Assembly: GCF_018734325.1 (NCBI RefSeq)
Contig: NZ_CP073754.1
Coordinates: forward strand, 310,001-374,000
Length of the DNA: 64,000 bases
Origin: Methylomonas paludis
GTDB taxonomy: Bacteria > Pseudomonadota > Gammaproteobacteria > Methylococcales > Methylomonadaceae
Reading direction: 5' to 3'
How positions within the stretch are numbered: position 1 is the stretch's first letter; each line of letters begins with the position of its first letter. The translations under genes and the position numbers were made by a program. This document shows, piece by piece, positions 39,540 through 48,593 of this stretch. A model generated the notes under the pieces. It saw only the letters and a list, made by a program, of their open reading frames with translations, was not told the origin of the DNA and searched no databases.

Positions 39540-39759
39540 CCATTACGATTTTTATTGGTGTGATTCCGCTGGCAGGCTATTGTCAGAAAAAATGTGATCA
39601 TGATCACAGCGGCACTATTGAGGCGGCTATCGCGCCGACCAGCCTAAATGTGAGGATTTAACTAAATCTATATTGGTTATTTTGATAACCGGTGGCCTAA
39701 TTTCAGTCAGGCTGACACTTTACACCATTCTGGATGTCTATCTTTCTTTATATGGATGA
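39540..39759 (+). pseudogene. Possible C-terminal relic of an RND efflux pump
   Basis: Just upstream of the outer-membrane factor gene, translation in two frames gives FIGVIPLAGY and then ILVILITGGLISVRLTLYTI, followed by LDVYLSLYG and a stop. This resembles the last two transmembrane segments of RND pumps (GVLPLA then GGLISSTLLTLFVLPVLY). A frame change and extra sequence lie between them. The order RND pump then outer-membrane factor is usual. The match is short, so this is a weak call. Confidence 0.35.
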
Positions 39760-39842
39760 ATTTCGTTAGCTTACACAGAAACGGATTTGTCACAACACTT
39801 TGTATTATGCAGATAAATTCGCCTAAGTTTGTCGAGATTTTC

Positions 39843-41333
39843 ATGAGTTTTCACATCACCAGACCTTTGCTTTACACCCTGTTAGCTAGCCAAATTAACG
39901 CCTGTATGATGGGCCCAGACTATATTCGGCCAAATTTGTCGGTTCCGGTCGAATTTAAGGAAGTCAAAGGTTGGAAATCAGCCCAGCCCAGAGATAATGT
40001 GCAAATAGGTAATTGGTGGGAAATATTTAACGATGCGCGTTTGAATGAGCTGGAAGTGCAGGTAACTCAGGGCAATCAATCCATTCAGCAGGCAGAAGCA
40101 CAATTTCGTCAGGCTGAACATTTAGTGCTGACGGCGCAGGCAGCACTTTCACCAGTAGGTTCTGCTACCACTACGGTTAACCGTTTTGTGGCAGCAAGTG
40201 GCCAGAGCGTGGCCGTATCGGGCTTGAGAAATCTATTTGGCACAGCTTTGTCCTTGACCTGGCAGCCGGATTTATGGGGCAGTGTCCGCCGACAAATTGA
40301 GGCCAATACCTCCAACGCTCAAGCCAGCGCCGCGACCATGCAGGCCTTAAAATTATCTAGTCAGGCGGCTCTGGCAGCAGCTTATTTTCAGTTAAAGACG
40401 CTAGACGCTCAAAAGTCCTTGCTTGATGAAACCGCCGGTGCTTATGCCAAGACTCTGAAAATTACTAAAAATCGCTATACCGTTGGTGTGGCAGCTAAAA
40501 GCGATGTAGTGCTGGCCGAAGCGCAAACTGAATCGGTTCGCGCCCAGGCCATTAATTTGGGCGTGCAACGCGCCCAATTTGAACATGCCATAGCGGTATT
40601 AATGGGTAAAACACCAGCAGAAGTTGCTTTACCAGCTTTACCGCTGGATGTTGATCCGCCGGCAATACCTGTCCAGCTGCCTTCAGAGCTTTTAGAGCGG
40701 CGTCCCGATATTGCCGCCGCCGAACGTCAAGTAGCGGCGGCCAACGCCCAGATTGGTGTCGCCAAAGCCGCTTATTTCCCCACTTTTAGTCTCGGTGTTA
40801 CCAATGGATTCCAGTCTGGATTTTTAGACACCTTGATTAGCCAGTCACACCGCTATTGGTCATTAGGTCCTGCTGCGGGGGCTTTGACCCTGTTTGATGG
40901 GGGAGCCAAAAATGCTCAGTATAAACAAGCTGTTGACAATTTTGACGCCAGCGTAGCCGGCTACCGGCAAACAGTATTAACCGCTTTCCAGCAGGTAGAA
41001 GATAATCTGGCGGCATTAAGGATTATGGAAGAACAAGCCCAAGTGCAGCTTAAAGCCGTCAGGGCGGCCAATGAAGGTTTAAGTTTGACCATTAACCAAT
41101 ATCAGGCCGGTACGGTGAGCTATCTGAATGTGATAACGGCCCAAACCACAGCGCTGACAAATCAACTAACAGCCGTACAACTCCAAGGTAGTCGGCTGAG
41201 TGCTGCGGTACAGTTGATTACGGCTTTGGGTGGCGGCTGGAATTTGCAAATGATACCTAATTCAGAGCAAATCGGCGGAGAAATTAAATGGTCGGATTAT
41301 TTGATTATTCCGATGCTGGATCAAGGCAGTTAA
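39843..41333 (+). CDS. NodT/OprM family outer-membrane efflux lipoprotein
   Basis: This 496-residue outer-membrane factor of tripartite efflux pumps has a signal peptide with lipobox-like INAC (Cys21 from the chosen ATG), MGPDYIRPNLSVP just after it, and two OEP repeats. Typical motifs are NWWEIFNDARLNELE, LTWQPDLWGSVRRQIEA, LLERRPDIAAAERQVAAANA and GTVSYLNVITAQ. The in-frame ATG at 39756 would place 50 residues before the lipid cysteine, so 39843 is preferred. No intact pump or adaptor gene is adjacent; only a possible relic precedes it. Confidence 0.9.
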   Translation: MSFHITRPLLYTLLASQINACMMGPDYIRPNLSVPVEFKEVKGWKSAQPRDNVQIGNWWEIFNDARLNELEVQVTQGNQSIQQAEAQFRQAEHLVLTAQAALSPVGSATTTVNRFVAASGQSVAVSGLRNLFGTALSLTWQPDLWGSVRRQIEANTSNAQASAATMQALKLSSQAALAAAYFQLKTLDAQKSLLDETAGAYAKTLKITKNRYTVGVAAKSDVVLAEAQTESVRAQAINLGVQRAQFEHAIAVLMGKTPAEVALPALPLDVDPPAIPVQLPSELLERRPDIAAAERQVAAANAQIGVAKAAYFPTFSLGVTNGFQSGFLDTLISQSHRYWSLGPAAGALTLFDGGAKNAQYKQAVDNFDASVAGYRQTVLTAFQQVEDNLAALRIMEEQAQVQLKAVRAANEGLSLTINQYQAGTVSYLNVITAQTTALTNQLTAVQLQGSRLSAAVQLITALGGGWNLQMIPNSEQIGGEIKWSDYLIIPMLDQGS

Positions 41334-41860
41334 GGCTATATGTATTCGAGTTAAACATCATCACCATAGATCGGTTTTGTAAGTATTGAAGTGCTGCAAA
41401 GTGTAGATCTAGCTATTCCTGCCGGATCAAATTTCCATTTCCCAATTTTGGCCTCAATCTGATTGGTTTTGCTCATTGGGAGCAAAGTAGAGCGGCTTAG
41501 CATGGCCGTCAGGATTTATGGGTTTATAAAAAGTTGTTTAAAATAAGTAACATATAAAAATACCGACAAATATCCAGATAGGGTCGCAACAAACTCCTCG
41601 CTTCAGTAAATGCACATTCTGCAACACCTTATCAACAAGCTGTGACTTAAATTCAACAGTCAGCATTAGCTTTATCGTATTGAGTCATTGAAATAACAGG
41701 ATTGTTTTTTTGGCACAACAATTGCCATATCTGCGGGGTGCATGGGGTTTAATTTTCAAAAAATGAAATAGCCGGCACGCCGCCTTTTGACCTGTTTAAG
41801 CCTCTCAGGATAAAACCGCTGGGCAGATCAAGAGAATTTCAATTAAATTCGAGATCATTA
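41334..41860. other. 527-bp intergenic region with sigma-54 promoter and leader
   Basis: No ORF is supported. A sigma-54-type promoter lies at 41711. The 120-base leader after it includes GC-rich segments that can pair, such as CTCAG with CTGGG at about 41804-41822. The rest shows nothing I can name. Confidence 0.5.
41711..41726 (+). promoter_or_regulatory. Sigma-54-type promoter upstream of PEP-CTERM/sulfatase operon
   Basis: TGGCAC at 41711-41716, a five-base spacer, and TTGC at 41722-41725 match the -24/-12 consensus TGGCAC-N5-TTGC exactly. Transcription would begin near 41737, giving a leader of about 125 bases. Sigma-54 with the PrsK/PrsR regulators is known to drive PEP-CTERM genes in some bacteria, so the site fits the gene it precedes. 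Confidence 0.7.
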
Positions 41861-42430
41861 ATGAAACTTAAGTTAACTCATTGCTCTTCTGTGATTGTGC
41901 TGGCTTTAGGCTTATGTCATCCAGCTTTTGCCGACTTTAGCAACTACTACAATGTAGCCAATTGGACTATTAACGATAATGCCGGCGGCAGCGTGGATTT
42001 AAGTTCTGCTCCGGCCTCGGTGACCCTAACCAGCGGTAATGCAGGTATTCCCGGCGATACTATATTTTCCATCACGGCAGAGGGGCTTGAAAAAATAGCC
42101 TTTGACTGGTCATATACCACCAACGATTTATGGGGTGAATCCGGTACTGATGCCTTCGGATATGTGCTGAACGGCAATTTCACTACACTGATTGACCCCA
42201 ATCAAGATTCCAGCATACCAACCCAATCGGGCAGTATCGAGTTTATTGTCAATCCTCACGATGTATTTGGTTTTGATGCCAATACCCTGGATGGCTACTA
42301 CGGTTCAGCCGTTACGGTCGTGTCCAATTTTACCGTCACAGCCGTACCGTTAACCGAAACCATCTGGATGTTCAGCGGCGGTCTATTGCTAATGTCCTCT
42401 ATGTTAGGCCGCCGCCGACTCCCAGCCTAA
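41861..42430 (+). CDS. PEP-CTERM-like exported protein
   Basis: This 189-residue protein has a signal peptide (about 1-24, to HPAFA) and a beta-rich, low-cysteine middle domain. The C-terminal sorting signal is built like PEP-CTERM variants: VPLTETIWMFSGGLLLMSSM, then LGRRR. The first block usually reads VPxPAxxWLF, so this is a divergent form. Such proteins are processed by exosortase and can be part of the extracellular matrix; no exosortase gene is in this window. A sigma-54-type promoter precedes it and an arylsulfatase gene follows after 78 bp. Confidence 0.8.
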   Translation: MKLKLTHCSSVIVLALGLCHPAFADFSNYYNVANWTINDNAGGSVDLSSAPASVTLTSGNAGIPGDTIFSITAEGLEKIAFDWSYTTNDLWGESGTDAFGYVLNGNFTTLIDPNQDSSIPTQSGSIEFIVNPHDVFGFDANTLDGYYGSAVTVVSNFTVTAVPLTETIWMFSGGLLLMSSMLGRRRLPA

Positions 42431-42508
42431 CGCCTGTCATTATCACGCTTAAATTAATTTGCGATCATCAGTGGTCGCCACCAACATTGCTCCGATTGAG
42501 GTAACAAC

Positions 42509-44404
42509 ATGTCCATTTTACAAAGCAAAGCCGCACATCAACCACCATTTTCCAAGACACTCATGTCTGCTGGTTTGGCTGTTGCTGCGTTAACCTTGTC
42601 TACCAGCCCCATCACGGCTCAGGCCACCGGTACGCTGGCAGGCTCCAAACCTAATATCCTCTACATTATTGCCGATGACCTTGGTTATTCCGATCTCAGT
42701 GCTTTTGGTGGCGAGATCCGTACTCCCAATATCGACAGTCTGGTAAAATCCGGGCGGATTCTCAGTAATCATCATGTATCTACCGTTTGCGCAGTCACCC
42801 GCTCCATGCTGTATTCCGGCACCGATCATCACTTGGTCGGTGAAGGTACTATGGGCGCTCCTAACGATGAACGCCGTGGTTTACCCGGTTACGAAGGTTA
42901 TTTGAATAATCACGCTTTGAGCATAGCCGAATTACTGAGAGATGGCGGTTATCACACTTATATTGCCGGCAAATGGCATTTGGGTTCTTTGGTTAACTCC
43001 TCTATCAACAAAACCCCGGATCAGTGGGGTTTCGAAAAATCGTTTACCCTGCTTGGTGGTGCTGCCAGTAATCATTTCGGACATGATACCTCTGCCCAAA
43101 AAACTTATACTGAAAACGGCCAATACGTTTCGCTGCCTGCTACCGATGTCAGCGGTCAGCCCTGGTATGACACCAATGTCTACACCCAAAAGATCATCAG
43201 CTATATTGATGCCGACCACGGTGACGGCAAACCATTTGCGGCTTTTGCCACGTTTACCTCGCCTCACTGGCCGTTACAAGTACCGGAGCCATGGTTAAGT
43301 CAGTATTCGGGCTGGTATGACGCAGGTTATGATGTGGTGCGCAATCGGCGTTTGCTCAGACAAAAGCAACTGGGTTTAGTGCCTAACGATTACACTGTGG
43401 CCAGTCAAACCCTACCAGATGCTACCAGTGCTTCACCGGCTACCGCCAATAATGGCAAGGCCGCTGCCAGTTACATTAATGCTAATACGGTTGAAACTGG
43501 AAATTTGCTTAATGTAGATTACGGCCCCGGTTTGGTGGACCCAGTCTGGAATAGCTTGACACCCGCCCAGAAAAAGACCCAGGCCCGCTATATGGAAGTT
43601 TATGCAGGTATGGTCTCCAATTTGGACTACAACGTTGGTCTGCTGATTCAACACCTGAAGAATATTGGTCAATACGATAATACCTACATAGTCTTTCATT
43701 CCGACAACGGTGCCGAAGGGTGGCCGCTTTCTGCGGCGCAAGATACCATCAATGCTAGCAACTTCAATAATCTAGGCAAAGATCAAACCCTAAGACCAAG
43801 CGGTTCGGCTGCTACCAATATTCAATATGGATTACGCTGGGCCGAAGTTAGTGCCACACCATTTCGGTTGAGTAAAGGCTACACCACTGAGGGCGGTACT
43901 TCTTCACCAACTATTATCCATTTGCCTGGCCAAACCACCCAGTACCCCACTTTGCGAGATTTTGTCCATATTCGCGATGTTGCTCCAACATTACTGGAAC
44001 TGGCCGGCATTTCGCAGCCCAGCACGCCGTCAGCTAATGTGGGTGTCAATAATTTGCCGCTGGTGGTTTATAACGGTCGCGATGCTTATCCGATTACCGG
44101 GAAATCGTATTTAAGTGAACTGGCTGGACTCAATACAGGTCCGCTGCATACCGAAGCTGTAGGCGAGGAACAATACGGCCGCGCCTATCTGCGTAGCGGT
44201 CAATGGAAAGCTTTGTGGGTTGAACCGCCATTGGGTCCGGCAGATGGTCACTGGCAGTTGTTCAATATTGTCAATGATAGAGCCGAAACCAATGATGTTT
44301 CGGCCAGCCACCCGGATATTGTTAACCAGCTCTATCAGTCCTGGACAGACTATCTGCATAATACCGGAGGAGTTGAGCCGTTAAGACCGCTTGGCTATTA
44401 CTGA
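42509..44404 (+). CDS. Arylsulfatase with CAVTR active-site motif
   Basis: This 631-residue type I sulfatase has a signal-like N-terminus (to about 40, AQA). The metal-binding start is PNILYIIADDLGYSDLSAFG (D56, D57). The active-site residue is C94 in STVCAVTRSMLYSG, where FGE would convert Cys to formylglycine; canonical sulfatases read C-x-P-x-R, and valine replaces proline here. HIAGKWHLG-type YIAGKWHLGS and FHSDNGAEGW (second metal pair) are present. It likely hydrolyses an aromatic or carbohydrate sulfate ester. A dedicated FGE gene follows directly. Confidence 0.92.
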   Translation: MSILQSKAAHQPPFSKTLMSAGLAVAALTLSTSPITAQATGTLAGSKPNILYIIADDLGYSDLSAFGGEIRTPNIDSLVKSGRILSNHHVSTVCAVTRSMLYSGTDHHLVGEGTMGAPNDERRGLPGYEGYLNNHALSIAELLRDGGYHTYIAGKWHLGSLVNSSINKTPDQWGFEKSFTLLGGAASNHFGHDTSAQKTYTENGQYVSLPATDVSGQPWYDTNVYTQKIISYIDADHGDGKPFAAFATFTSPHWPLQVPEPWLSQYSGWYDAGYDVVRNRRLLRQKQLGLVPNDYTVASQTLPDATSASPATANNGKAAASYINANTVETGNLLNVDYGPGLVDPVWNSLTPAQKKTQARYMEVYAGMVSNLDYNVGLLIQHLKNIGQYDNTYIVFHSDNGAEGWPLSAAQDTINASNFNNLGKDQTLRPSGSAATNIQYGLRWAEVSATPFRLSKGYTTEGGTSSPTIIHLPGQTTQYPTLRDFVHIRDVAPTLLELAGISQPSTPSANVGVNNLPLVVYNGRDAYPITGKSYLSELAGLNTGPLHTEAVGEEQYGRAYLRSGQWKALWVEPPLGPADGHWQLFNIVNDRAETNDVSASHPDIVNQLYQSWTDYLHNTGGVEPLRPLGYY

Positions 44405-44411
44405 GGTTAGC

Positions 44412-45428
44412 ATGGCATTAGGATTAAAATCCTGGGGCAAAGCAGGCTCGGCCTGCTTTGCTTTCGCCTGTACGGTGCTAATCGCGGCCTACGGATTGAT
44501 ATTCATTGGCTCCGTCAGCATATACCCGGCGCAACTGGGAAATTCGGAGCTTTGTAGACATTATTCTGGATTGCCCGGCAATTGGCGCATCAAGCCCTTG
44601 GCGGGTATGGTGTACATACACAATGGCGAATTTAAACTGGGAACTACTTTGGGATATGAGGAAGAACGTGATGAAATTGTCACCCAGGTTAAGGGATTCT
44701 GGATAGATCAAACCGAAGTAACTGTCGCGCAGTTCAGTGATTTCGTGTCCGCAACCGGATACATCACCGAAGCTGAACGCGAAGGCGGTGGTGTGGTATT
44801 TAGAACACCAGATGAAACCGTCCCGAATCAACAACCTTATGCCTGGTGGACCTATGACAAATCGGCCAATTGGCGGCATCCAAATGGTTTGGAAAGTAGT
44901 GCTGCAGCAAACCAGCCAGTCACATTGGTGACATTTAATGATGCCCTGGCTTATGCAAAATGGCTGGGTCGCGATCTGCCCACCGAAGCAGAATGGGAAT
45001 ATGCGGCTAAAGCTCATCGGCAAGGTGCTGAACTGGAAAAAGAACCCAGAGATGCTCAAGGCAAACCGCGTGCAAATTTCTGGCAGGGAAATTTTCCCAA
45101 TTTAAATACCCAGGAAGACGGCTATGCCGGCCTAGCTCCGGTGGGCTGCTATCCTGGCAATGATTTTCAGTTATACGATATGATAGGTAATGCTTGGGAA
45201 CAGACCAAAGATATATACACGGAGTCGCATCAGGCCTATGCTCAGCGTTTGTCTGCGGTTGATAGCCAAAAAGCAGACCGGCCTATGGTGGTTAAAGGCG
45301 GCTCACATTTGTGCGGCCGTAATTTCTGTGTCCGTTACCGACCTTCCGCACGCGAAGCACATGAAGCCAATCTAGCTATTTCTCATATCGGTTTTCGTAC
45401 GGTACAGCGAAATTTTGGTTTGTTTTAA
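44412..45428 (+). CDS. Formylglycine-generating enzyme, membrane-anchored
   Basis: This 338-residue FGE-sulfatase domain protein has one N-terminal membrane helix (about 14-36). It oxidises the sulfatase active-site cysteine to formylglycine with O2 and copper. The two copper-binding cysteines are present as C301 and C306 in GGSHLCGRNFCVRYRPSAR. Other family blocks are PLAGMVYIHNGEFKLG, WIDQTEVTVAQF, LPTEAEWEYAAK and DMIGNAWEQTKD. ATG 44412 with GAGG ahead is chosen over 44391, which would overlap the sulfatase stop. The anchor suggests action at the periplasmic face or during export. Confidence 0.93.
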   Translation: MALGLKSWGKAGSACFAFACTVLIAAYGLIFIGSVSIYPAQLGNSELCRHYSGLPGNWRIKPLAGMVYIHNGEFKLGTTLGYEEERDEIVTQVKGFWIDQTEVTVAQFSDFVSATGYITEAEREGGGVVFRTPDETVPNQQPYAWWTYDKSANWRHPNGLESSAAANQPVTLVTFNDALAYAKWLGRDLPTEAEWEYAAKAHRQGAELEKEPRDAQGKPRANFWQGNFPNLNTQEDGYAGLAPVGCYPGNDFQLYDMIGNAWEQTKDIYTESHQAYAQRLSAVDSQKADRPMVVKGGSHLCGRNFCVRYRPSAREAHEANLAISHIGFRTVQRNFGLF

Positions 45429-45443
45429 ACCGGAGTAGGTCGA

Positions 45444-46448
45444 GTGTCAATAGCTGAGACAACAACGATAAATCCCTTCGATACGGTATCGTTCAATTGT
45501 ACGGCATGTGGTAAATGCTGTAATTCACCGCCTTTGTTAAGTGTACCGGAGCTGCTGCATCATGAATCGCTTTTTGTCGGTAGTCTGGCCTTGCGCCGCA
45601 TCAGTTCCCCGGAATCCGAAGCCAGTTTTGATGCTAGGCGCGGTTTGATTTTAAGTAATTCCGATAGTGCCTTATTAACAGAAACGCTTGATGCTCAGTT
45701 ATTTAGCGCTAAACAGACAAAATCTGCAGACTTTTATGTTTCGCTAATGCCTATGGCCATCGATTATGAATCGTTGAAAAAATGTCCGGCTTTAGCCGAG
45801 AACAACCAATGCCGGATCCAGCATAATCGTAAACCAGTGGTTTGCAGCATGGTACCTTTTGATTCACTTTATCCAGACAGTTTGCAACATCTGGTGCTGC
45901 AAAGCCGGCATTATGGGGAAGAATGTATTATGAGCGGCACTAAAGCCGGCTATCAAGTTGTCATAGAAAAACAGCAAGTGGTCAGCCAGGAATATCAGAC
46001 AGCTTTACAGCAGCGTCGCGCCGAATTGATTTTGGAAAAAACTGTTTGGGCCAATCAGGTTTACACCGCATTGGAGCAGCAATTGTTGAGTAATCCACAG
46101 GAATTGGCAAAAATCCCAATAGACACCGGTCTGTTATCCATTTCAATTTTGCCTATGTTAATGGTGTTATGTGAGATTTCCGAGCCATGCGCAAATCGGT
46201 GTTTGCAATATATTAACGCCCAAATTGATTTAATCGACAGTAAAATTGCCCAGGCAATCGCCAGAAAAATACCGGCGGATAAGGCAATGACCAAAGAATT
46301 TAGATTCTTTAAGGAAAAATATCTGCAATTTAGGCCTTATCTGCTGAACAAACTGGCACAGCCGAATTTTCGCAAAGATATGATTCCATCCGAGCAAGTC
46401 AATGCCGTGGAAAATTATCTGGGGATTGTTTTTAACGCAACCGGATAG
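45444..46448 (+). CDS. YkgJ family cysteine-cluster protein
   Basis: This 334-residue protein starts with the PF03692-type cluster FNCTACGKCCNSPP (C19, C22, C25, C26) and has later cysteines in KKCPALAENNQCRIQHNRKP and VVCSMVPF that complete a zinc or iron-sulfur site. The C-terminal half is helical and unassigned. Family function is not settled. GTG is used as start, with GGAG 11 bases ahead. It lies 15 bp after the FGE gene, so the three genes form an operon; a role in sulfatase maturation or metal supply is conceivable but unproven. Confidence 0.85.
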   Translation: MSIAETTTINPFDTVSFNCTACGKCCNSPPLLSVPELLHHESLFVGSLALRRISSPESEASFDARRGLILSNSDSALLTETLDAQLFSAKQTKSADFYVSLMPMAIDYESLKKCPALAENNQCRIQHNRKPVVCSMVPFDSLYPDSLQHLVLQSRHYGEECIMSGTKAGYQVVIEKQQVVSQEYQTALQQRRAELILEKTVWANQVYTALEQQLLSNPQELAKIPIDTGLLSISILPMLMVLCEISEPCANRCLQYINAQIDLIDSKIAQAIARKIPADKAMTKEFRFFKEKYLQFRPYLLNKLAQPNFRKDMIPSEQVNAVENYLGIVFNATG

Positions 46449-46537: not shown

Positions 46538-46574
46538 GTTTATCCTCTGGCACTTAAAGCACCAGAGGATAAAC
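46538..46574. terminator. Convergent bidirectional hairpin
   Basis: GTTTATCCTCTGG pairs perfectly with CCAGAGGATAAAC (13 bp) across an 11-base loop. It lies between the converging YkgJ and phosphatase-like genes and can stop both transcripts. Confidence 0.7.
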
Positions 46575-46581
46575 TAATCGC

Positions 46582-48375
46582 TTAGTTGATTTGTGGCAAT
46601 ACCTGAGTTTTTTCAGCTTGCACCGCTTGTAATTGACTTGGATCCAAGCCTAATAACTTGAGAATGGTTGGTGCAATTTGTGTGGTTTCAACATTGCTAT
46701 TGACGCTGACACCGTGTTTGATGCCGGGTCCCCAAACCAGAATAGGCACATGACGGTCATTTATGGAATAACCACCATGCTCGGCAACTTTTGACAATGA
46801 ACCGCCGGCATAAACAGAGCCTTGTTTGGCAATACCAATCACATCGGGTACCCGCTGATCAGTTGCTTTTACATTGATTAACTTTTGGGCATCAACACCG
46901 GCATATACTGCTCTTAAGCCGGCATTACTGAAAGGTTTGCTGATTTTCACACCTGCAGAGTCAGAACCAACGCCGGCAGGTACTTTAACACCTGATAGGG
47001 TTTTACCTGTGGTGTAGTTTAACAAGAACTGTTTGGTAAAGCTTAAAGCGGCAGTCGATCTGTCATTTAACCACAATAATACCCCATCATCATCCATGGC
47101 ATGGGCTACCAGGGGTAGCTTGGCTTTGGGGTTTTTCTGTGCCCAAGCGTTATTCAAAGCAGTGGTCAGGGCTCCATCATCAATAATAGTCAAATCGCTT
47201 CTGCTTTGTGGGGATTGGCCGTGTTTTGCCGAAATAATAATGGCTGTATTAGCTTGGGTGCTGGGGTTGTTGTTGATTTCGTCAAAAATTTGTTTAAGAC
47301 TACTGTCAACAAAACTTAAGGCACTTTGCACAACTTGACCCGGCACAGTACCATTGTTGGTATAACCACCCAACTCAGCTACTGTTGGACTTTCAGGAGT
47401 GGTTGATGTGTTCAGTTTTTGAGCCGTGGATACAGCCTGAAAGTTCATGCCAAAAATCGCTGGTGTACCTGGATTTTTAATGCCGGCGTGATCGTAACCA
47501 TTAATTTCATTAATAATCGACACGACCTTGATGCTATCGTATCTTTGGGTATTAATATTATTTTTGGTCCAATCAGCAGCGCTGGCATTATCGGCAATTT
47601 GGCTATTGATTTCAGGTGCAAACAGATCATCGACCCCGGTTCCGGAAGGTCCGTTCAATATCTCATAAGCCGGATGTTTATCGGTCCAAGCAGTATTCAG
47701 GCCGTGGGCTTTAGCCACTTCAAAGATGGTATTGACTTGCAGGTATTGATGTGGATAAACAACATTACAGGTGCTTGGATCAACTGGTAGTTGGGTTGGA
47801 TCAATCAGCGTGCTTCTGATATCAGCCGGACTACTTTTTAAGCTCAAAATAGTGGTGGGTACTTGGTCCAAAACGCCAGGGGTAAATGCCGGAACCGGAT
47901 ATAATCCAGAAATGCCTTGCCCGGCATCGAGTAATAAAAGGCCATTTGTGGTTTTATCGATATTTTCGGCGTACTGGACTTCCGCGCCGGCTGCGACAGT
48001 CTTAGCTTGGCAATCAGTAACACTGGTGCCTAAAGGCAGCAAAGCCCGGCTATACGAATCGTCATAATAAATCCCGGTCGATTGTGGATTACCGCCGGTT
48101 GCTTGGGCGACTAAGCCAGGAAATGAATCGGAAGGAAATGGTGTCGAAGCATTGGTATACTTAATACCATTATTGACGATGGTTGCCAAAGTGGAGTTAT
48201 GATTTTGCTGCACAAACCAATCAAGATCGTTTTGGTGTAAGCCATCCACCGAGATTAGCAACACATGCTTTATAGTTGAGCTGCTAGTTGTAGCAGAGTT
48301 TTTAGTGGCCGCAACTGCAGAGCCTGCGACCGCCATACTCACAGCTAGTGAGATTAGGGTTTTGTTTATCGTCAT
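46582..48375 (-). CDS. Secreted alkaline phosphatase superfamily protein (phosphodiesterase-like)
   Basis: This 597-residue protein has a signal peptide (MTINKTLISLAVSMAVAGSAVAA). The fold is that of type I phosphodiesterase/nucleotide pyrophosphatases. HVLLISVDGLHQNDLDWF provides the first metal aspartate, TPFPSDSFPGLVAQATGG holds the nucleophile serine or threonine, and TAIIISAKHGQSP, EHGGYS and HVPILVWGPG complete the site. ATG 48375 is chosen since it starts the signal; 48408 adds eleven residues. It converges on the sulfatase operon. The substrate is unknown; a phosphodiester or phosphonate is likely. Confidence 0.88.
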   Translation of the reverse strand: MTINKTLISLAVSMAVAGSAVAATKNSATTSSSTIKHVLLISVDGLHQNDLDWFVQQNHNSTLATIVNNGIKYTNASTPFPSDSFPGLVAQATGGNPQSTGIYYDDSYSRALLPLGTSVTDCQAKTVAAGAEVQYAENIDKTTNGLLLLDAGQGISGLYPVPAFTPGVLDQVPTTILSLKSSPADIRSTLIDPTQLPVDPSTCNVVYPHQYLQVNTIFEVAKAHGLNTAWTDKHPAYEILNGPSGTGVDDLFAPEINSQIADNASAADWTKNNINTQRYDSIKVVSIINEINGYDHAGIKNPGTPAIFGMNFQAVSTAQKLNTSTTPESPTVAELGGYTNNGTVPGQVVQSALSFVDSSLKQIFDEINNNPSTQANTAIIISAKHGQSPQSRSDLTIIDDGALTTALNNAWAQKNPKAKLPLVAHAMDDDGVLLWLNDRSTAALSFTKQFLLNYTTGKTLSGVKVPAGVGSDSAGVKISKPFSNAGLRAVYAGVDAQKLINVKATDQRVPDVIGIAKQGSVYAGGSLSKVAEHGGYSINDRHVPILVWGPGIKHGVSVNSNVETTQIAPTILKLLGLDPSQLQAVQAEKTQVLPQIN

Positions 48376-48593
48376 ATATGCCTCGTTTATTGTATGGTTT
48401 TGTAGCAAGTATCAGCATAACCATCAAAGATTGCATATTTATGACGAGCCAATTAATTAGCCGCTAAACTCAGGGGTGAGGGCAATATTTTGTCATTCGC
48501 TGGAGTGGCAAAATACCCGTTAAAAAATTATATTTTGCTTGAGTAGGAGCCATTCTTGAGTACTCTACTTGCCATCCTCAATCGACTTAAAAA

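Follow-up and report, generated by a model that had tools for sequence, protein, structure and literature searches.

What does a cysteine-cluster protein of the YkgJ kind do when its gene lies directly behind those of a sulfatase and a formylglycine-generating enzyme (FGE)? The question is raised by a locus in a stretch of 64,000 nt of the Methylomonas paludis genome (3.67 Mb, one contig), hereafter the window, in which a sigma-54-type promoter sequence is followed by four + strand genes, separated in order by gaps of 78, 7 and 15 nt and encoding a secreted protein with a PEP-CTERM-like tail, a sulfatase, an FGE and a YkgJ-like protein. A preliminary description of the locus had proposed this set, and every part of it, promoter included, was found where it had been placed. 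To our knowledge, most YkgJ-family proteins have no assigned role, and the cassette offers a direct genetic test for a function in this family. The best reading of the set is that it serves sulfate-ester scavenging, with a dedicated maturase and the YkgJ-like protein as an accessory. With about even confidence, we envisage that the cassette resembles an operon built around an arylsulfatase of the cell surface or periplasm, and that the YkgJ-like protein would be a [4Fe-4S] protein of the FliB/YkgJ type, located in the cytosol and having the sulfatase as its target.

A sulfatase clade with its own maturases

The arylsulfatase gene (42509..44404, +) encodes a secreted type I sulfatase of 631 aa, AtsA-like, which scored 161.7 bits against Pfam Sulfatase and was similar to PDB 1hdh in two long stretches spanning the whole chain (E 6.8e-109). 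A signal peptide was recognized by eye and the catalytic motifs were located (ADDLGY55, C94, GKWHLG154, SPHW251, SDNG398 and SKGY455), so that both the domain and the catalytic residues of a type I sulfatase are present. We take 1hdh to be the AtsA of Pseudomonas aeruginosa, presumably with the active-site motif C-S-P-T-R, of which the alignment shows S-P-T-R. While the two proteins share the catalytic motifs along the whole chain, the window sulfatase differs in being exported, in belonging to a group with another active-site motif, and in having a maturase gene, FGE or anSME in this group, adjoining its own. C94, in C-A-V-T-R, is its predicted formylglycine site. The canonical motif is (C/S)-X-(P/A)-X-R (PMC6189696), a form from which all 85 distinct members of the group depart, the third position being I or V (V in the window). 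Judged by their sequences, these sulfatases belong to a distinct clade with the motif (C/S)-A-(I/V)-T-R, and three outgroup sulfatases, all lacking a YkgJ-like gene, carry CSPTR.

The FGE gene (44412..45428, +) encodes 338 aa from its ATG, beginning with a hydrophobic anchor segment from which a periplasmic location is predicted. The FGE with both copper cysteines that had been proposed was confirmed by the PF03781 score (208.6 bits against a cut-off of 23.3) and by alignment with the solved structures 5ssy and 1y1e (human FGE; E about 2e-54), which set GGSHLC-x4-C on GGSYMC-x4-C and identified the copper pair as C301 and C306 (numbered from the ATG). Both cysteines are kept in 75/75 FGEs of the clade cassettes. 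The protein thus resembles the SUMF1/FGE family in its domain score and aligned cysteine pair, and departs from it in its N-terminal membrane anchor and in its presumed substrate motif, with Val or Ile where Pro or Ala is usual. If so, it should accept Cys-Ala-Val/Ile-Thr-Arg, outside CxPxR and CxAxR, which would be of practical interest for aldehyde-tag protein labelling.

The pairing of active site and maturase was scored in 85 distinct sulfatases of the clade, 76 with Cys and nine with Ser at the active site. An FGE gene adjoins 75 of the 76 Cys-type sulfatases, the remaining one (L123) having neither maturase, and a radical-SAM maturase, anSME, accompanies all nine Ser-type sulfatases, none of which has an FGE at the locus; mixed cases were not seen in the 85. 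The earlier view of a sulfatase system with its own maturation machinery is supported. Among the loci of the genome scan described below, Ser replaced Cys in exactly those without an adjoining FGE. Of 14 genomes or records searched with the anSME family TIGR03942, five gave a match over its cut-off (456-477 bits against 349); these were the five Ser-type genomes and no others, and each match lay directly downstream of the YkgJ-like gene. A further search of Burkholderiales added four Ser-type cassettes (L145-L148), all with an anSME, assigned solely by similarity to the anSME of L051 (752-788 bits), and two with a YkgJ-like gene. In the other two, L145 and L147, the slot is filled by an unrelated gene that runs against the direction of the cassette (L145 6029-7018, -; L147 5993-6979, +) and by eye is aminoglycoside-phosphotransferase-type kinase-like; the YkgJ-like gene is absent from these two loci, the rest of the genomes (G786 and G817) not having been searched for it.

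The pairing is local and not genome-wide, because strong FGE genes occur elsewhere in some Ser-type genomes (G817, G988 and G877) and the genome of L123, which is Cys-type, has several FGEs away from the locus. No FGE-domain protein at all was found in two of the five Ser-type genomes searched, those of L033 and L091. A sulfatase tree from which the motif had been masked favours three changes for the Ser state, which may however have arisen only once. A Ser-type sulfatase with an anSME is presumably the arrangement of the Klebsiella AtsA/AtsB type, which the Ser-type cassettes resemble in active site and radical-SAM maturase, here over the TIGR03942 cut-off, and from which they differ in sharing both their clade and their YkgJ partner with a Cys/FGE form. 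What is new here is the clade motif and the swap of the maturase in step with the active-site residue. The clade amounts to a natural experiment, in which related sulfatases are served by two unrelated maturases, the active-site residue is matched to each, and a third protein survives the switch, so that features tied to the maturase can be told apart from those tied to the sulfatase.

Conservation of the YkgJ-like gene beside the sulfatase

The genome scan covered one genome per species (84,980 species) and used the YkgJ alignment through a single peptide pattern, relatives without that pattern being unseen. It returned 78 loci, which were scored with profiles built from seven cassettes; 72 of them have a strong YkgJ match (150 bits or more). 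The co-occurrence of sulfatase, FGE and YkgJ in other genomes, proposed as a check in the preliminary description, is conserved: in 69 of the 72 strong loci a clade sulfatase lies upstream on the same strand and in a fixed order. The refutation named there, YkgJ occurring apart from the sulfatase in other genomes, therefore fails. The other three are incomplete, L038 and L056 being cut by contig ends, so that they begin inside a MetQ-like gene and an FGE, respectively, and L061, a contig of 3,167 bases from a metagenome-assembled genome (MAG), holding the last 53 sulfatase residues alone, before a MetQ-like gene. Among the six weaker loci, L098 has a cassette whose YkgJ frame is short, while L093, L095, L096, L097 and L099 have distant YkgJ relatives (50-76 bits) and no such sulfatase. 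In three of these (L093, L095 and L099; 65-76 bits) the YkgJ relative lies in a different context, shortly after a conserved gene that is PilZ-like by eye.

Since 69 of the 72 strong relatives stand in order downstream of this sulfatase clade, chance does not account for the YkgJ-like gene being where it is. By their record titles, the 69 loci come from Methylobacter, Nevskia, Burkholderia and its kin, Comamonas, Variovorax, one bacterium each of Neisseriaceae and Rhodocyclaceae, and Myxococcales. In the order of the window organism, the clade sulfatase occurs in 3/201 genomes, all three with YkgJ, and two more genomes (G185 and G163) have YkgJ fragments or distant kin and no clade sulfatase. 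One of them (G185) contains a decayed cassette (L017, 7845-9206), with a partial FGE, a YkgJ missing some cysteines and no sulfatase. Most Burkholderiaceae cassettes have a gene for an orphan MetQ/NlpA-like binding protein between FGE and YkgJ (L010 7153-7968 and L013 7198-8001; PF03180 with 144 and 181 bits in these two tested), whose end overlaps the start of the YkgJ-like gene in the loci read; no transporter partner was recognized adjoining it in those loci.

Among the scored cassettes, YkgJ accompanies 72 of the 76 Cys-type sulfatases (L098 with its short frame counted) and 7/9 of the Ser-type. Three of the four Cys-type cassettes without it keep their FGE (L120, L121 and L124), and the fourth is L123, so that, with L145 and L147, a maturase stands without YkgJ in five cassettes. 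The association is also asymmetric when the sulfatase is taken as the anchor. A sample of the phylum gave a clade member (575 bits or more) in 7/398 genomes, an eighth match of 278 bits belonging to the outgroup, and among the six sulfatase-clade members other than the window organism there were four, the hosts of the Cys-type cassettes without YkgJ, in whose whole genomes the YkgJ profile matched nowhere. Hence YkgJ goes with the sulfatase, and the sulfatase does not need YkgJ.

Possible roles of the YkgJ-like protein

The fourth gene (45444..46448, +; GTG start) encodes 334 aa. It had been described as a YkgJ protein with a cysteine cluster, beginning 15 bp after the FGE gene; the position and the cluster, of eight cysteines, stand, while the score against PF03692 is below the family cut-off (17.9 bits against 23). 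The cut-off divides the six further YkgJ proteins scanned too, L051 (25.5), L039 (36.9), L093 (31.6) and L099 (29.3) lying above it and L091 (20.7) and L034 (12.4) below, and the family model recognizes 34 of the 36 relatives aligned (E<=0.01). The eight cysteines (C19, C22, C25, C26, C114, C123, C134 and C161) are conserved without exception in two alignments, one of 40 and one of 36 relatives, and the rest of the protein evolves fast in comparison with the sulfatase: identity to the cassettes L015 and L016 is 53% and 48% for YkgJ and 77% and 84% for the sulfatase. The best named match is on a Methylobacter MAG contig (L022), and a YkgJ tree recovers the main groups, many of its forks being weak. 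No signal peptide was seen by eye on the protein, which is predicted to be probably cytosolic.

A model for its action may be sought in FliB, for which one study reports eight conserved cysteines, an oxygen-sensitive [4Fe-4S] cluster in a PF03692-like motif, and a cluster-dependent methyl transfer to flagellin, an exported protein (PMC8598068). The two cysteine arrangements are similar, C-x4-C-x3-CC...C-x8-C-x14-C...C in FliB relatives and C-x2-C-x2-CC...C-x8-C-x10-C...C here, and in both cases the partner is a protein that is exported, in FliB after its modification. The lysine methyltransferase differs from the window protein in having flagellin and not a sulfatase as its partner, and in an hhalign comparison the C-x8-C block alone aligned in register, and weakly so. 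The FliB model NF038110 gave no match in the organism's own genome, and none at E<=10 for the window YkgJ and five relatives; because of this, we class the protein as possibly FliB-like in action and not as a FliB.

On the computed parts, their co-occurrence, the Cys/FGE and Ser/anSME pairing, the optional presence of YkgJ and its invariant cysteines we base the following scheme, in which we infer the single transcription unit, the topology, the Fe-S cluster, and what YkgJ acts on and by which chemistry. A sigma-54 promoter would, in the methanotroph-type lineage, give one transcript; the sulfatase would be exported by its own signal peptide, and the membrane-anchored copper FGE, facing the periplasm, would oxidise C94 to formylglycine with O2. 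The mature sulfatase would then cleave sulfate esters near the surface, where the PEP-CTERM-type protein would be co-produced. In Ser-type members, the FGE gene is replaced by that of a radical-SAM anSME, which could act on Ser before export. YkgJ, which stays with both forms, would act on the sulfatase precursor, for instance by a modification before export as FliB does on flagellin, and would be a dispensable refinement, not a maturase that the system requires. Since the maturase is swapped together with the key residue while YkgJ is usually kept, YkgJ probably serves the sulfatase, its simplest remaining partner, and not the activating enzyme. A bolder form, to which we would commit ourselves only tentatively and with rather more doubt than belief, holds that these proteins are a new [4Fe-4S] FliB-like family of protein modifiers dedicated to the exported sulfatase clade, installing a second modification before export, beyond formylglycine, and that the clade switched residue and maturase around YkgJ.

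Several results weigh against this reading. YkgJ cannot be essential, as it is missing from 6/85 cassettes and from four of the six further genomes of the phylum sample (found in 2/6, window excluded), and in a Burkholderiales sample, where the clade occurs in 11/399 genomes, YkgJ was found in 5/11, query genome included (six of the 11 being taken as the same as genomes of the phylum sample, which they match in size and very nearly in coordinates). Many of the 72 strong loci are from related Burkholderiaceae, so that locus counts overstate the number of independent events, as do the counts for the Cys/Ser switch, which possibly happened once (three changes being favoured). The YkgJ and FliB profiles match weakly, with a probability of 13.9 where an anSME control gave 0.2, the FliB model is silent as described, an AlphaFold2 model of YkgJ (pLDDT 87.6) has no convincing match in the PDB, and no sulfatase residue or lysine content clearly tracks the presence of YkgJ. 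Finally, in Burkholderiaceae YkgJ adjoins and overlaps the MetQ-like gene and could serve the MetQ-like protein instead.

This last observation leads to the alternative that survives best, in which YkgJ and the MetQ-like protein share a starvation signal with the cassette and work in sulfur or metal metabolism at large, the sulfatase being no target of YkgJ at all. We regard it as unlikely, though worth keeping in mind: the MetQ-like gene (PF03180) does separate FGE from YkgJ in most loci of Burkholderiaceae, and where the junction was read its stop overlaps the YkgJ start, but it was not found in methanotroph-type cassettes or in eight of the nine Ser-type cassettes, six of which have YkgJ. 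It is decidedly improbable that YkgJ is an extra formylglycine-forming maturase, active for example at low O2 and redundant with FGE or anSME. Benjdia reportedly proposed in 2007, from E. coli mutants, that a third sulfatase maturation system exists (cited in PMC6189696), and YkgJ is tied to the clade whichever maturase is present; moreover, methyl transfer by FliB uses a [4Fe-4S] cluster (PMC8598068). However, all nine Ser-type cassettes, the setting in which a further maturase should stand out best, carry their own anSME, L145 and L147 combine Ser and anSME without YkgJ, and no scored clade cassette has YkgJ while lacking both FGE and anSME. Five cassettes, among which both maturases are represented, do without YkgJ, so formylglycine formation is unlikely to depend on it.

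The preliminary description had also offered YkgJ as a possible metal-supply factor, and a supply or guarding of copper for FGE, or some other aid to its reaction, would suit a gene directly beside that of a copper enzyme with both cysteines in the window cassette. This idea fared badly and now seems very improbable, since YkgJ is kept whether the maturase is an FGE, which depends on copper and O2, or an Fe-S radical enzyme, the latter in 7/9 cassettes, and a service to the FGE as its copper factor is thus unlikely; besides, two of the five Ser-type genomes searched (L033 and L091) have no FGE-domain protein, FGE cassettes without YkgJ exist (L120, L121 and L124), and YkgJ is predicted to be cytosolic whereas FGE appears membrane-anchored by eye. 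That the locus is an ordinary sulfatase-maturase operon, of which gene pairs are common, with an optional YkgJ gene as a passenger kept by linkage, can be given hardly any credence, as the link spans methanotroph-type gammaproteobacteria, several Burkholderiales genera, a genome titled as Neisseriaceae, Nevskia and Myxococcales, with order and strand the same in 69/69, and survives the maturase swap.

Putative promoter, PEP-CTERM-like protein and neighbouring genes

The putative sigma-54-type promoter TGGCAC-AACAA-TTGC (41711..41725, +), 135 nt ahead of the first gene, is, as reported before, an exact match to TGGCAC-N5-TTGC, and the sole one in the window. The exact pattern occurs at 15 sites in the 3.67 Mb genome against one for a reversed control; a search of the window that tolerated one mismatch found it no more often than chance would give (11 found, 7.6 expected). 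The -24 GG and -12 GC pairs are kept upstream in the two closest relatives, L015 and L016 (TTGGCATATTAAATGC, TTGGCTTGATAATTGC), giving GG-N10-GC in 3/3 aligned upstreams, the full consensus not being kept in the relatives. Two other exact sites in the genome stand 7 and 2 nt before open frames (L149 and L151) that we take to be nifH-like and nifE-like, and for this reason the organism probably fixes nitrogen. Several other exact sites fall inside frames, and two pairs of sites share spacers (TGAGA and TTAAA), which suggests repeats. A scan of the region for promoters and terminators gave no more matches than in shuffles.

The first gene (41861..42430, +) encodes a secreted protein of 189 aa whose C-terminal tail, VPLTETIWMFSGGLLLMSSMLGRRR, is a degenerate PEP-CTERM signal (VPLPA-CTERM-like) with a VP-helix-RRR layout visible by eye. 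It had been regarded as an exosortase-type substrate, which is supported by this tail and by three exosortase-family (PF09721) matches over cut-off in the genome, but the tail is degenerate and below the NCBIfam cut-offs: the window protein passed none and matched neither TIGR02595 nor TIGR03370, the L015 orthologue scored 13.4 against 16 and 13.6 against 25.35, respectively, and that of L016 matched neither. Orthologues precede the sulfatase in L015 (57% identity), L016 (58%) and L023 (partial), and end in the standard VPLPG or VPVPG form. When 97 stretches were scanned with a profile of the gene, it was found in four, the window, L016, L022 and L023, which are all from the lineage of the window (L022 and L015 are one contig). 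In 78/85 clade sulfatase rows scored, a lipobox, strict or relaxed, lies before the domain (L122 repeats L027 among these rows, and no score was possible for L084). The rows in which none was found are the window, L016, L022, L023, L091, L124 and L039, in the last of which it is probably outside the stretch scanned. As the four with the PEP-CTERM-type gene ahead of the sulfatase are among those without a lipobox, a PEP-CTERM companion may have taken the place of a lipid anchor in the methanotroph-type lineage, which we offer as a suggestion only. Elsewhere in the genome (C1:1006682-1009971; L019, L004), a second FGE-domain gene follows an exosortase gene by about 2 kb.

The preliminary description knew of no account of this set. 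In the open-licence literature we likewise found no paper on a YkgJ/CxxCxxCC-sulfatase set or on a Burkholderia or Cupriavidus sulfatase-formylglycine operon, but the pairing of a sigma-54 motif with PEP-CTERM genes downstream is already described in two papers (Haft 2006, PMC1569441; Aquincola pepA, PMC9850573). That part of the locus, with its -24 GG / -12 GC site, is a known pattern, from which it differs in that, according to the 2006 abstract (PMC1569441), most PEP-CTERM genes are single-gene operons, whereas here one heads a set of four.

Downstream, an inverted repeat seen by eye (TTATCCTCTGG-N11-CCAGAGGATAA, 46540..46572) lies between the operon and a convergent gene and is possibly a terminator shared by both; the terminator scan, which permits loops of 3-8 only, did not report it. 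Upstream of the promoter, a NodT-type outer membrane efflux protein is encoded at 39756-41333 (+; TIGR01845, 402 bits). The product of the convergent gene (46582-48408, -) is a protein of the type I phosphodiesterase/alkaline phosphatase superfamily (PF01663, 70.7 bits), to which the sulfatase belongs as well.

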